64,000 nt of DNA from an uncultured Opitutaceae bacterium (GTDB taxonomy: Bacteria; Verrucomicrobiota; Verrucomicrobiia; Opitutales; Opitutaceae), in contig CALFNN010000070.1 in the NCBI GenBank assembly GCA_937902925.1, positions 310,001 to 374,000 on the forward strand, in the 5' to 3' direction. The translations under genes were made by a program, and so were the position numbers. This document shows positions 23,139 to 57,429 of this stretch, in pieces (position 1 is the first letter of the stretch; the number at the start of each line of letters is the position of its first letter). Under the pieces are notes generated by a model. It searched no databases. It was given only the letters and a program-made list of their open reading frames with translations, and had not been told where the DNA came from.

Positions 23139-23225
23139 AATCGTTCTCGTTCTCCTCCTTCTTCTTGTTCTCCTTCTTTTCCAGCCCGAAGAGCACGATT
23201 ACGCCAACGCGGAACGAGAACGATC
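23139..23225. repeat. 87-bp inverted-repeat element, gene-less relative of the 56.4-kb element
   Basis: The left end holds AATCGTTCTCGTTCTC at 23139-23154, identical to the 16-bp terminal unit of the element at 56397-56883. A degraded second unit lies at 23159-23172, with the same 18-base periodicity. The right end holds the inverse, GAACGAGAACGAT at 23212-23224, and a decayed inner copy at 23191-23200. The middle is a pyrimidine-rich run. It lies between divergent queC and the HDAC gene. It looks like an internally deleted, MITE-like copy (inference). Confidence 0.8.
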
Positions 23226-28589: not shown

Positions 28590-29361
28590 TGATCGTCGCC
28601 ATCGCGACGTTCAGCGAGTCCGCCTGTCCCGCCATCGGAATCCGCACCGGCCGGTCGGCATTCTTCAGCCAGAACTCGCTCAACCCGTATTGCTCGCTGC
28701 CCATCACGATCGCGAGCGGTCCCCGCAGGTCGGCGGCCGAGTAAATCTCCTCCGCCGCCGGCGTCGTCGCGACGGTGCGCACGCCTTTCTCCTGCAACCA
28801 TGCCAGCACCCGCGCGCTCTCCTCGACGACCACCGGCACCGAAAACAACACGCCGGTCGAGGCGCGCACCACATTCGGGTTGAAAATATCCGTCACCGGA
28901 TCGCACACGATCACCGCATCGCAACCCGCTGCATCCGCGCTCCGCAAGATCGTGCCGAGGTTCCCCGGTTTCTCGATCGCCTCGACGACCAGCAGAAACG
29001 GCTCCGCCGGCAATGCGAGGTCCGCCAGCGCCCGCCTCCATTGCGGCGCCACGGCGAGCAGCCCGTCGGGCCGCTCCCGGTAAGCCACCTTCGCAAACGC
29101 CTCTTTCGACAGCTCGAACGCCTGCGCGCCCGCCGCCTGCGCCTGCGCAATCAGCGCCGGCTCGTTTTCGCCCAAAAACCACTCCGGCGAAAAATACAGT
29201 TCCGTCAGCGCGACTTTTTTTTCGAGCGCGCGCCGGATTTCGCGATAACCCTCGACGAGAAACACCCCCGCCTCGTCGCGCGGCCGCCGGTCGCGCAGCT
29301 TCACGAGCTGCTTGATGCGGGGGTTCTGGAGACTGGAAATCTTTTCGGAAGGAGCGCCCAC
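28552..29361 (-). CDS. TrmH/SpoU-family RNA 2'-O-methyltransferase
   Basis: About 269 residues. It has an N-terminal substrate-binding domain (VFLVEGYREIRRALE) and a SPOUT knot. Motif 1 is IEKPGNLGTILRSADAAG, and the SAM-binding knot is AIVMGSEQYGLSEFW then IPMAGQADSLNVAMA. The target, 23S rRNA or tRNA ribose, is not resolved. The likely GTG start at 29361 falls inside the left arm of the inverted repeat at 29356-29450. The same arm codes SVCSVG if read further upstream. It overlaps oleD's end by 38 bases, convergently. Confidence 0.88.
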   Translation of the reverse strand: MGAPSEKISSLQNPRIKQLVKLRDRRPRDEAGVFLVEGYREIRRALEKKVALTELYFSPEWFLGENEPALIAQAQAAGAQAFELSKEAFAKVAYRERPDGLLAVAPQWRRALADLALPAEPFLLVVEAIEKPGNLGTILRSADAAGCDAVIVCDPVTDIFNPNVVRASTGVLFSVPVVVEESARVLAWLQEKGVRTVATTPAAEEIYSAADLRGPLAIVMGSEQYGLSEFWLKNADRPVRIPMAGQADSLNVAMATIITLFEAVRQRSA

Positions 29362-29450
29362 GGAACACACGGAACACACGGAATCGCCCAAAAGACAAAA
29401 TCCTTTTCCTCGCCGTGCCGGTTTCCGTGTGTTCGGTGTGTTCCGTGGGC
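29356..29450. repeat. Hairpin repeat shared by two divergent gene starts
   Basis: Two 28-base arms, 29356-29383 and 29423-29450, are inverted copies with one mismatch, separated by 39 bases. Each arm consists of iterated TTCCGTGTG words ending in TTCCGTGGGC (read outward). The GTG GGC of each arm is a plausible start codon of the gene leaving that side: the SpoU enzyme on the left and the RlmD-like enzyme on the right. A decayed relative is at 38016-38068. Confidence 0.8.
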
Positions 29451-55035: not shown

Positions 55036-56394
55036 GTGAATCGCGTCCACATCAAGACCTATGGGTGTCAGATGAACGAGCGCGACAGCGAGGCTGTCGC
55101 GGCGATGCTGCGCGCCCGCGGCTACCGGATCGTGGCGGACGAGGACGATTGCGACATCCTGCTGCTCAACACCTGCAGCGTGCGCGACGCCGCGGAGCAA
55201 AAGGCGATTGGCAAGGCCGGCTATCTCCAGCAACGCAAGAAGAAGCAGCCCGACTTCGTCCTCGGCATCCTCGGCTGCATGGCGCAGAACCGCGGCGCCG
55301 CGCTGCTCGACCAGTTGCCCGACGTCGACCTCATCGTCGGCACGCAGAAATTCCACCAAGTGCCCGGCTACCTCGACAACCTCCGGGCCGCTCGCGAGGC
55401 CGGGACGCCCGTCGGCGCGACGATTGTCGACATCGGCGAGGAAGCCGGCTCGCAGAACACGATCCGCGACCACGACCTCGCCGAGAAACAGGTCAGCGCC
55501 TTCGTCTCGATCCAGCAGGGCTGCAACATGGATTGCTCCTTCTGCATCGTGCCGAAGACGCGCGGCGACGAGCGCTCGCGGCCGATGGATGAAGTCGTCG
55601 CCGAGTGCGGGGCGCTCGCGGAGCGCGGCGTCCGCGAGATCACGCTCCTCGGCCAGATCGTCACGAGCTATGGCCGCCGCGACTACGCGCACACGGGCGG
55701 CATCACGCCGTTCGTGCAGTTGCTCGAGCGCGTGCACGCGATCGACGGCATCGAGCGGATCCGGTTCACCTCGCCGCACCCACGCGGGTTCAAGGACGAC
55801 CTCGTCGCCGCCTACGGCCGCCTCGAGAAACTCTGCGGCTACGCGCACCTGCCGATGCAGTCGGGCAGCAACCGGATCCTGCGCGCGATGAACCGCCCCT
55901 ACACGCGCGAGCGCTACCGCGAGATCGTCGACTCGCTCCGCGCCGTCCGGCCGGATATGTATTTCTCCACGGACGTGATCGTCGGATTCCCCGGCGAGAC
56001 GGAGGAGGACTTCGCCCAGACGCGCGACCTGTTCGAGGCGTGCAACTACGACATGGCCTATGTCTTCAAATATTCCATCCGCACCGGCACGCCGGCCGCG
56101 ACGATGGCGGGGCAGGTTCCCGAGGAAGTGAAGGAGGAGCGGAACCAGATCCTGCTCGACCTCCTCCAGAAAAACTCCGTCCGCCGGAACGCCGCGTTGC
56201 TTGGCACGGTGGAACAGGTGCTCATTGACGGCCCGGACAAGACCGGCCGCCGTTTCACCGGCCGCACGCGGGGGAACCGCGTCTGCGTGTTCGATGCGGA
56301 GCCGAGGCTCGTCGGCGAACTCGTGCCCTTGCGGATCGAACGCGCCAGCGTCAGCACGCTTTACGGCCAGTTGGTGCTGGCCGGCGTGGGGTAA
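55036..56394 (+). CDS. miaB: tRNA-2-methylthio-N6-dimethylallyladenosine synthase MiaB
   Basis: 452 residues from GTG 55036. It is a radical-SAM methylthiotransferase acting at A37 of tRNAs. Cluster ligands: TYGCQMNERDSE, LNTCSVRD and GCMAQNRG in the N-terminal UPF0004 domain; CNMDCSFCIVPKTRG for the radical-SAM cluster; and a TRAM domain at the end (VLIDGPDKTGRRFTGRTRGN). All three N-terminal cysteines are present. The four-helix-bundle element starts 3 bases after its stop. Confidence 0.96.
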   Translation: MNRVHIKTYGCQMNERDSEAVAAMLRARGYRIVADEDDCDILLLNTCSVRDAAEQKAIGKAGYLQQRKKKQPDFVLGILGCMAQNRGAALLDQLPDVDLIVGTQKFHQVPGYLDNLRAAREAGTPVGATIVDIGEEAGSQNTIRDHDLAEKQVSAFVSIQQGCNMDCSFCIVPKTRGDERSRPMDEVVAECGALAERGVREITLLGQIVTSYGRRDYAHTGGITPFVQLLERVHAIDGIERIRFTSPHPRGFKDDLVAAYGRLEKLCGYAHLPMQSGSNRILRAMNRPYTRERYREIVDSLRAVRPDMYFSTDVIVGFPGETEEDFAQTRDLFEACNYDMAYVFKYSIRTGTPAATMAGQVPEEVKEERNQILLDLLQKNSVRRNAALLGTVEQVLIDGPDKTGRRFTGRTRGNRVCVFDAEPRLVGELVPLRIERASVSTLYGQLVLAGVG

Positions 56395-56396
56395 CA

Positions 56397-56883
56397 AATC
56401 GTTCTCGTTCTCTTAATCGTTCTCGTTCTCTCTTTCTGCCTTTGACGATGCCCGCTCCATTCGACCACGAGAAGCTCCGCGCCTATCAAGAGGCTCTTCG
56501 CTTTGTGGCTTGGGTCGCACCCGTGATCGAAGAGCTTCCCGCCAAGCTGTCGGCAAAAGACCAACTCGACCGTGCGTCGACCAGCATCGTGCTTAATATC
56601 GCGGAAGGAAATGGCAAACGATCGCACCCAGACCGACGCCGCCACTTCGACACCGCGCGCGGCTCGGCATTGGAATGTGCGGCGTGCCTGGATGTATTGG
56701 TGGTGCGCGGCAAACTTAGCTCTGAAACCACGCCTGTCGGCAAAGAAATCCTTCTCGGCGCGGTTTCGCCGCTTGCGGGGTTGATTGCGCGTTTCCCGAA
56801 TCAGGTTCACGAGGAGCAAGCGCCCTATGGCGCGACCATTCAAGCCGGAGAGAACGAGAACGATTAGGAGAACGAGAACGATT
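56397..56883. mobile_element. 487-bp element: four-helix-bundle gene between doubled inverted repeats
   Basis: Each end holds two copies of a 16-bp unit, 18 bases apart: AATCGTTCTCGTTCTC at 56397-56412 and 56415-56430 on the left, and the exact reverse complement at 56850-56865 and 56868-56883 on the right. The two 34-base ends differ at one position. The interior encodes a single four-helix-bundle protein whose last codons and stop are in the right repeat. It fills the gap between miaB and the next gene almost completely. No transposase is present. A gene-less derivative sits at 23139-23225. Mobility is inferred. Confidence 0.8.
56448..56867 (+). CDS. Four-helix-bundle protein (S23/bAvd-like family)
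   Basis: 139 residues from ATG 56448. The family pattern is visible: HEKLRAYQEALRFVAWV opens helix one, SAKDQLDRASTSIVLNIAEGNGKRSHPDRRRHFDTARGSALECAACLDVL spans helices two and three, and KEILLGAVSPLAGLIARF helix four. Related proteins occur in rRNA intervening sequences and as accessory proteins of diversity-generating retroelements, where a pentameric bundle binds nucleic acid. The C-terminal GENEND is encoded by the terminal repeat, and its TAG stop ends within the repeat spacing. Confidence 0.88.
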   Translation: MPAPFDHEKLRAYQEALRFVAWVAPVIEELPAKLSAKDQLDRASTSIVLNIAEGNGKRSHPDRRRHFDTARGSALECAACLDVLVVRGKLSSETTPVGKEILLGAVSPLAGLIARFPNQVHEEQAPYGATIQAGENEND

Positions 56884-56889
56884 CAAATC

Positions 56890-57429
56890 ATGTCCCTCAC
56901 CGTCGCCACGCTCATCCCCGGATTGCTGCTCCTCGCGCTCGGCGTGCCGCTGCTGGCCGGCCATTCGGGCTATACGGTGCTGTTGAAGGCCTTCCCGCGC
57001 TCGACGGCCGCCGCGTATGTTTTCTTTGGCGGCGGCGCGGCCTGGTTTCTCTACGCCATCTGGAATCTGTCGCCGGCCGATTTCGGCGACTATCGCAAGC
57101 TGCTCTTCGGTGCGTTTGCGCTCATCGTCGTGCTGTCGTTCAAGTGCGTGCCCGATTTCCTCGCCGTCCGCGGACTGTGCGTGCTCGCCCTGATGGGCGC
57201 CATGCCGCTGCTCGATGCCGCCTACATGGAATACGACCACCCGCAGCGGCTTTTCATGGTGACGCTGGTCTATCTCGTCATCTCCGCCGCCATCTGGCTC
57301 GGCGCCCAGCCCTGGCGGCTGCGCGATTTTCTGGACTGGATGTTTGCGCGGCCCGGTCGCGCCCGCGGCGTCGGTGCGGCGCTCGCCGCCTACGGGCTAC
57401 TGCTGGCCGGCGTGGCGTTCACCTACTGA
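56890..57429 (+). CDS. Uncharacterised integral membrane protein
   Basis: 179 residues with about five hydrophobic helices: LIPGLLLLALGVPLLAG, AAAYVFFGGGAAWFLYAIW, LLFGAFALIVVLSF, LFMVTLVYLVISAAIWLG and ALAAYGLLLAGVAFTY. Its ATG is 6 bases past the right end of the four-helix-bundle element, with no Shine-Dalgarno except the repeat's own purines. gmk follows 5 bases later, so the two are probably co-transcribed. Function unknown. Confidence 0.7.
   Translation: MSLTVATLIPGLLLLALGVPLLAGHSGYTVLLKAFPRSTAAAYVFFGGGAAWFLYAIWNLSPADFGDYRKLLFGAFALIVVLSFKCVPDFLAVRGLCVLALMGAMPLLDAAYMEYDHPQRLFMVTLVYLVISAAIWLGAQPWRLRDFLDWMFARPGRARGVGAALAAYGLLLAGVAFTY

Follow-up and report, generated by a model that had tools for sequence, protein, structure and literature searches.

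A four-helix-bundle gene between short-repeat arms and a population of gene-less hairpins in Opitutaceae: a candidate IVS-like mobile system

Introduction

To our knowledge, genes of the PF05635 family, which encode four-helix-bundle (4HB) proteins, have no established job. One such gene, in an uncultured Opitutaceae bacterium, lies between miaB and the next gene and is enclosed at both ends by doubled inverted repeats. Is this arrangement a mobile unit, and what would the protein and the repeats do for each other? An earlier note on this locus had suggested a possible new class of mobile unit, in which the two move or are maintained together without a transposase or reverse transcriptase.

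Relatives of the gene are found in the intervening sequences (IVSs) of rRNA genes. In Coxiella, the IVS carries tandem heptamers ahead of an S23p/IVP open reading frame, and its stems are cut by RNase III (PMC4990558); in the available part of that paper, IVS mobility is offered only as hypotheses (PMC4990558). Full-text searches of open-licence PubMed Central papers listed no title or abstract that connects PF05635 genes with inverted arms of short repeats or with hairpins lacking the gene; a prior description may exist in subscription papers or preprints. Here, we follow the element from its window (the whole 64-kb stretch of DNA analysed) through its own genome and family to other phyla.

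Results

The 16-mer AATCGTTCTCGTTCTC occurs twice on the plus strand at the left end of the element, as an outer (56397-56412) and an identical inner unit (56415-56430) whose starts are 18 bases apart. Its exact reverse complement occurs twice at the right end, likewise 18 apart, as an inner (56850-56865, minus strand) and an outer unit (56868-56883, minus strand), and the two 16-bp units per end described in the earlier note thus hold to the base. Over 36 nt, the arms (56397-56432 and 56848-56883) are 97% complementary, and in the predicted RNA they pair with each other (z -5.1). The 4HB gene (PF05635/TIGR02436) reads on the plus strand from 56442 to 56867 when its open reading frame is taken from TTG 56442, ATG 56448 being the more likely start. 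It overlaps the inner right unit: its end, GAG AAC GAG AAC GAT TAG (E N E N D stop; 56850-56867), falls within the right arm, and the claim that this repeat encodes the last residues and the stop codon is therefore correct. Upstream, miaB (55036-56394, plus strand; TIGR01574 miaB-methiolase, E 1.3e-137) has its stop codon at 56392-56394, and the left arm begins 2 bases later, rather than 3 as had been noted. The 6 bases given between the end of the right arm and the next ATG (56890) were confirmed. This downstream gene (MSLTVATL..., 56890-57429, plus strand) matched none of the Pfam and NCBIfam profiles at E 0.001; a homologue is present in 144 of 150 family genomes.

The arrangement stands out within the window, as 16 of its 28 inverted 14-mer seeds spaced at most 700 bp apart fall at the PF05635 locus, more than expected by chance. 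We are thus dealing with an IVP-type gene between complementary terminal arms, located between miaB and the next gene and not within a 23S rRNA gene. An Rfam search of the 64-kb window returned no match at the gathering score, which rules out a known RNA family as a candidate.

The encoded protein matched PF05635 (E 3.1e-19; 69.6 bits, cut-off 33.8) and TIGR02436 (E 1e-15; 57.9 bits, cut-off 24). The Pfam/NCBIfam profile search detected no catalytic domain, which argues against the protein as a driver, and a search of a phage collection with the window-type protein gave no match. An AlphaFold model of the monomer (mean pLDDT 86.8) predicts helices at 5-29, 35-56, 60-86 and 95-114, with a C-terminal tail of low confidence. 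The best Foldseek match of this model was 2gsc_B (E 4.1e-5; TM 0.71 by query and 0.84 by target), and phmmer with the protein also reached 2gsc (E 1e-7). Xcc0516 (2gsc) and BT_0352 (2rld) ranked as the best solved relatives, with Avd (4dwl, 8ub7) scoring weaker. By homology, the protein probably assembles into a pentameric ring like Xcc0516.

We then asked whether the repeat is found apart from the gene. The 6.0-Mb source genome contains 15 exact copies of the 16-mer, four of which are the element's own arms, against none for the reversed control; a 14-mer allowing at most one mismatch is found at 44 sites (control: 3). The earlier note had called for a genome-wide search and would have given up its proposal had the unit been confined to this locus; the unit extends well beyond miaB, mostly in gene-less hairpins. 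The other 16-mer sites that we examined were mostly gene-less inverted arm pairs of 61-121 bp, some decayed, lying between genes and commonly right after one gene or right before the next. On RNA folding, seven of eight such hairpins had z below -3 and the eighth -2.0. The window itself contains a decayed copy of the same arm type a little upstream of an ATG (23139-23224, plus strand; the exact 16-mer at C70:333139 is window position 23139), as well as a gene-less hairpin of another repeat type with the 9-nt unit CACGGAACA (29356-29450, no strand assigned; RNA fold z -7.1). The genome thus has dispersed gene-less inverted doublets that share their repeats with the flanks of a single-copy 4HB gene, the configuration that characterises REPINs.

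PF05635 had five matches in this genome, four of them above the cut-off. Three other loci, which we examined, have heptamer arms, each of its own type: GTGACGT on contig C34, TTGAAGG on C38 and TGATTCA on C104. The C38-type repeat TTCAACNTTCAAC is likewise dispersed, at 11 sites (control: 1). As a separate observation, the C-terminal part of the genome's ribonucleotide reductase (L240:2919-3572, contig C104) holds two in-frame tracts of a GTCAC-type heptamer, a unit resembling the arm repeat of the 4HB gene at C34; both tracts run in the same direction, and a gene-less hairpin is therefore ruled out for them.

Across the family, the 16-mer is present in 63 of 150 genomes, and its distribution tends to follow the gene. 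Where the orthologue is at least 60% identical (29 genomes), 26 contain the 16-mer, compared with 37 of the 121 others (Fisher 5e-9), at a mean of 12.9 versus 1.8 copies. The 60% cut is our own choice; with all orthologue genomes included, the figures are 26 of 36 versus 37 of 114 (Fisher 3.5e-5). Within the 14 genera that have members both with and without the gene, the gene-bearing members had more copies in 11, fewer in one and equal numbers in two. Other observations speak against the gene as driver: ten genera lacking an orthologue hold the 16-mer (in genus g39 with 3, 7, 10, 16 and 13 copies), and in genus g18 the relation is reversed, two genomes without the gene having 18 and 12 copies versus 1 in the gene-bearing genome.

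The repeat type that is common in a genome also tends to be the one found in the arms around its 4HB gene. G115, whose gene has T-type arms, contains 39 T-type and 2 G-type copies, and its congener G073, with G-type arms, 4 and 16 (in all such counts, as many as 4 copies are the arms of the gene itself). The share of T-type copies differed between genomes with T-type arms (8) and those with G-type arms (14), with p = 0.0013 (22 genomes in total; arms were labelled by eye, the mixed G036 was counted as G, and G045, which has no intact gene, was excluded). Exceptions count against such coupling. G066 has T-type arms, yet 3 T and 17 G copies; 16 T-type copies occur in the G-arm genome G133 and 19 in G045, which has only a left arm at the junction; and two of seven genomes without an orthologue contain T-type copies (G020, 4; G004, 1).

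Comparison with close relatives indicated that the gene-less hairpins are mobile. We retrieved ten hairpin elements of G115 and compared the flanks of four with five congeners. At L244, 119 bp in G115 correspond to 21-38 bp in four congeners and to a different 152-bp stretch in the fifth (G095). At L243, a T-type hairpin is shared with G073 and G039 and missing in G132, G148 (36 bp) and G095. The gene-less elements are thus polymorphic for presence, L244 being missing in all five congeners and L243 in three of five. At the other two sites, it is the unit type that varies: L248 is T-type in G115 and G-type in G073, with four other sequences, mostly hairpin-like by eye, elsewhere, and the window genome has G-type arms at what by eye is the same site (L008); L250 is T-type in G115 and G039, G-type in G073 and another sequence in the rest. 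That gene-less hairpins come and go, and that the unit type at one site differs by genome, is therefore well supported. Inspection by eye of the four G115 sites compared with congeners revealed no evident target-site duplication. Across the ten G115 hairpins, the right arms had a median identity of 0.81 and the loops one of 0.46, against 0.43 for shuffled loops. Arms are shared and loops unrelated, which favours copying or conversion of the arms over recent transposition of whole elements.

The gene-bearing unit behaves differently. Orthologues at E < 1e-25 were found in 36 of 150 family genomes, one each and two in G056, and 31 of these 37 loci occupy this one junction of miaB and the downstream gene; the remaining six (46-52% identity) are at neither junction gene. 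Inverted-arm scores at the 37 loci ranged from 9 to 39 (median 21), compared with 6 to 12 (median 7) for 36 outward control pairs. Accordingly, 35 loci outscored every control (14 or more versus at most 12), the exceptions being L033 (9) and L056 (11), whose arms do not exceed the control maximum. The repeats themselves vary by genome (CGTTCT, CTTTCT, TTATC, TCTTCT, CCTAAT and others), and the two arms mostly still match. In only 11 of the 37 loci is a gene's own right arm the strict best partner of its left arm, a low rate that reflects the sharing of one repeat type by many genomes. Acidic C-terminal tails (for example ENEND, EKE, DKDKD and EEDEEVEAEED) were counted by eye in 31 of the 37 orthologues and are encoded largely by the right arm; this coding role of the right arm is probably why the window clade uses units of 3 or 6 nt rather than 7 nt.

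The miaB junction itself exists in several states. Of 51 junction loci considered, miaB was found in 50, for which the gap to the next gene was compared. It ranges from an 18-bp linker alone (G149, G018, G142) to a 4HB element of ~500 bp, with remnants in between: both arms with only the ends of the gene left in G049 (L110), a left arm alone in G045 (L103) and a truncated gene in G001 (L064). Genomes without the gene have, by eye, hairpin-like repeats of other unit types at the junction (for example G065, G064, G112 and G096). The state in G049 is the expected product of an internal deletion and could be one way in which a gene-less hairpin forms. With 31 of 37 loci at one junction, transposition of the gene as a whole unit in this clade is weakened: the gene-bearing unit hardly moves here, and it is mainly the gene-less arm pair that spreads. 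The earlier note had called for a comparison of insertion presence at miaB between strains; the outcome that it named as refuting its proposal, the same arrangement at the same place in all relatives with no gene-less or shifted copies, does not apply, given the gene-less copies elsewhere.

We next looked beyond the family. PF05635 genes occur in 71 of 115 genomes of a set covering the phylum. Among 32 phylum loci (the best match per genome plus the three own-genome loci), 22 had an inverted repeat spanning the gene with a score of 13 or more; 150 cross-locus pairs had a median near 8 and a maximum of 18. In a further sample of named loci from many phyla, 58 of 79 reached 13; of 300 cross pairs 7 did so, and not one of the 70 outward controls. 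These loci are the best 80 of at least 577 confirmed ones, picked by similarity to a heptamer-type query (one, L167, was dropped because of its short flank), and the selection is biased accordingly, such that the rate may not hold family-wide. The 21 loci below the threshold argue against arms as a general plan. The best repeat period in the 58 loci was 7 nt in 52, 8 nt in five and 10 nt in one. Repeat arms with scores of 15-31 were also present at all eight plasmid loci examined, from 23 records and without a control of their own.

Some of these elements interrupt other genes. Among the plasmid loci, L159 of Azospirillum lipoferum has 7-nt repeat arms and is spanned by a 23S rRNA match, which makes it a classical IVS. 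On plasmids of Anabaena sp. 90 (L153) and Pseudanabaena galeata (L154), a 4HB gene framed by heptamer arms separates cas6 from cas4, a neighbourhood that has already been published (PMC3936711); insertion, rather than function, may explain why IVP genes have been reported with cas loci. Seven elements lie within protein genes; in each, the host frame continues through the element without a stop, and the 4HB gene uses another frame. Three are BREX PglX genes (L123, L124, L126; NF033452 in two stretches each), one is mfd (L142; TIGR00580 in two stretches) and three are DNA methylase genes (L162, L175, L186), in which N6_N4_Mtase matches on one side of the element only. The read-through host open reading frames measure 429-897 aa. 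A second frame open over the gene plus 45 nt on each side was found at 4 of 79 and 5 of 31 loci, versus 0.1 and 0.5 expected from codon shuffling, and in all nine it was the same +2 frame; for one such locus, L169, no host gene was identified. By eye, several read-through host genes also seem to hold shorter in-frame repeat inserts. At L145 (G238), another of the nine, the 4HB gene splits an MmeI-type methyltransferase out of frame, the MmeI_Mtase profile covering 6-85 before the element and 137-252 after it, the latter barely below the cut-off. The arms of L145 are of the GGGAATC type, a heptamer reported to be enriched in Xanthomonas.

Discussion

Gene and arms are associated, and the arms have changed in sequence between genomes without losing most of their complementarity. 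We consider it probable that the miaB-junction element belongs, as a member that carries the gene, to a broad class of IVS-like hairpins, with a REPIN-like gene-less population that is maintained in trans by the 4HB protein. The part played by the protein in hairpin upkeep would begin with its ring recognising the arms in their hairpin form, be it DNA or RNA; acting in trans, it may then promote both the copying of arms into new sites and the homogenisation of the repeat unit. Host polymerases would do the copying or conversion, by template switching at the hairpin with the help of the ring, a route that we favour over cut-and-paste of an entire element. The gene of this clade would be a settled, single-copy driver, as RAYT is for REPINs, and at the RNA level the arms should give a stem cleavable by RNase III, as in rRNA IVSs. 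Of the idea that protein and repeats move or are maintained together, the association stands (arms at 35 of 37 loci), while joint movement fits poorly with a gene-bearing unit that is mostly static.

Each half of this reading has a known counterpart. Like the window element, a 23S rRNA IVS has a PF05635-type gene between complementary ends that form a long stem (PMC4990558), and the Azospirillum lipoferum element, with its 7-nt repeat arms in a 23S rRNA match, is a case within our own data. The window element differs in being intergenic, in its 3- or 6-nt units, in its coding right arm and in its dispersed gene-less population. The latter resembles the REPIN/RAYT system, in which a single-copy, largely vertically inherited gene is flanked by repeats, gene-less hairpins occur as doublets and the repeat type tracks the gene (PMC3116915); here, however, we found no Y1 transposase, the protein is a four-helix bundle and the arms are short tandem repeats. 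Our insertions in protein genes are whole gene-bearing elements in host open reading frames, with the 4HB gene in another frame. Rickettsia palindromic elements, by comparison, are in-frame palindromic insertions within protein genes.

The most serious alternative, though in our view unlikely, makes the arms independent SSR- or MITE-like hairpins that arise by slippage and template switching, with the 4HB genes as passengers. This would account for the different unit types at the same sites in congeners and for the persistence of the 16-mer in genera without an orthologue, and heptamer repeats have indeed been published with no 4HB link named in the available text (PMC4692102, PMC4679880). Against it, the repeat type tends to follow the arms of the resident 4HB gene, copy numbers are higher in gene-bearing members in 11 of the 12 genera that differ, and arms frame the gene at 58 of 79 named loci (from the best 80 of at least 577) versus none of 70 control windows. 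The published repeats may themselves belong here. They share with 4HB arms the 7-nt tandem units and largely intergenic positions (PMC4692102, PMC4679880): GGGAATC tandem repeats in Xanthomonas are largely intergenic, with 70 and 75 inverted pairs in two genomes (PMC4692102), and TAACTGA repeats occur in Beggiatoaceae and cyanobacteria (PMC4679880). The available text of both papers contains neither 'S23' nor 'helix bundle', and Xanthomonas campestris encodes a relative of the window protein, Xcc0516 (phmmer). We propose that the heptamer repeats of both papers are linked to 4HB genes.

Alternatively, the hairpins could be host signals for RNA processing or mRNA stability, spread by another agent, with the 4HB protein a domesticated RNA-binding regulator that came to lie in one of them by chance. 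The common position directly after stop or before start codons, the strong predicted RNA stems, the concentration of 31 of 37 orthologues at one junction and the acidic tail in 31 of 37 (by eye) are all in keeping with this. Such a signal would have to be dispensable, however, given the 18-bp linker in G149, G018 and G142 and the sites that are empty in congeners, and the same kind of arm surrounds PF05635 genes of other lineages, including those in rRNA and protein genes. We judge this explanation improbable.

It is very unlikely that the hairpins are an ordinary family of REPINs with a RAYT, or of MITEs derived from an IS, that a transposase encoded at another place in the genome sets in motion. 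Intergenic inverted doublets with variable spacers do resemble REPINs (PMC3116915), but the arms are short tandem repeats and the neighbours are miaB and an unmatched gene. A search of the 95%-complete genome for Y1 transposases (PF01797, E 1e-5), the one transposase family covered, gave no match where the same search was positive in 5 of 14 control genomes, and a REPIN driven by a Y1 transposase is rejected accordingly. The homology of Avd and PF05635 has been stated (PMC10053308), and the fold similarity to Avd (4dwl, 8ub7) might suggest part of a diversity-generating retroelement (DGR), but Xcc0516 and BT_0352, of the S23/IVP family, score better, and with no DGR reverse transcriptase found beside the 4HB gene or elsewhere in the genome, whose sole reverse transcriptase found is retron-like and on contig C104, that reading can be dismissed. 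This retron-like enzyme (L240:1375-2190) is the genome's sole RVT_1 match and scored 138 bits against NF038233, below the cut-off of 235. The earlier statement that the element has no transposase or reverse transcriptase therefore holds for its neighbourhood; the genome search found no Y1 transposase and, on another contig, this one retron-like enzyme.

An IVS-like, 4HB-maintained hairpin class thus remains our preferred reading. The 'new class of mobile unit' of the earlier note survives in part: gene-less hairpins are mobile between congeners, but the gene-bearing unit is largely fixed at the miaB junction. More tentatively, and with the balance of our judgement slightly against it, we put forward an unrecognised mobile class in which a non-catalytic 4HB protein, kin to Avd, rewrites and spreads short-tandem-repeat arms in trans, at sites between genes, in 23S rRNA and in protein genes. 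If so, the hairpins of each genome would come to share the repeat type of the resident 4HB gene, and the open +2 frame would let a host protein read through the whole element. Such a class would also bring together rRNA IVSs, many heptamer repeats that lack an explanation, and the 4HB genes of cas and BREX loci.

Similar gene-plus-arms units in many bacteria point to a widespread, little-recognised kind of mobile DNA. If 4HB proteins do drive short-repeat hairpins, both IVS mobility and many heptamer repeats would have a testable agent behind them, spread would have a route that needs no transposase, and there would be a form of mobile DNA that crosses host genes by way of a second open reading frame.
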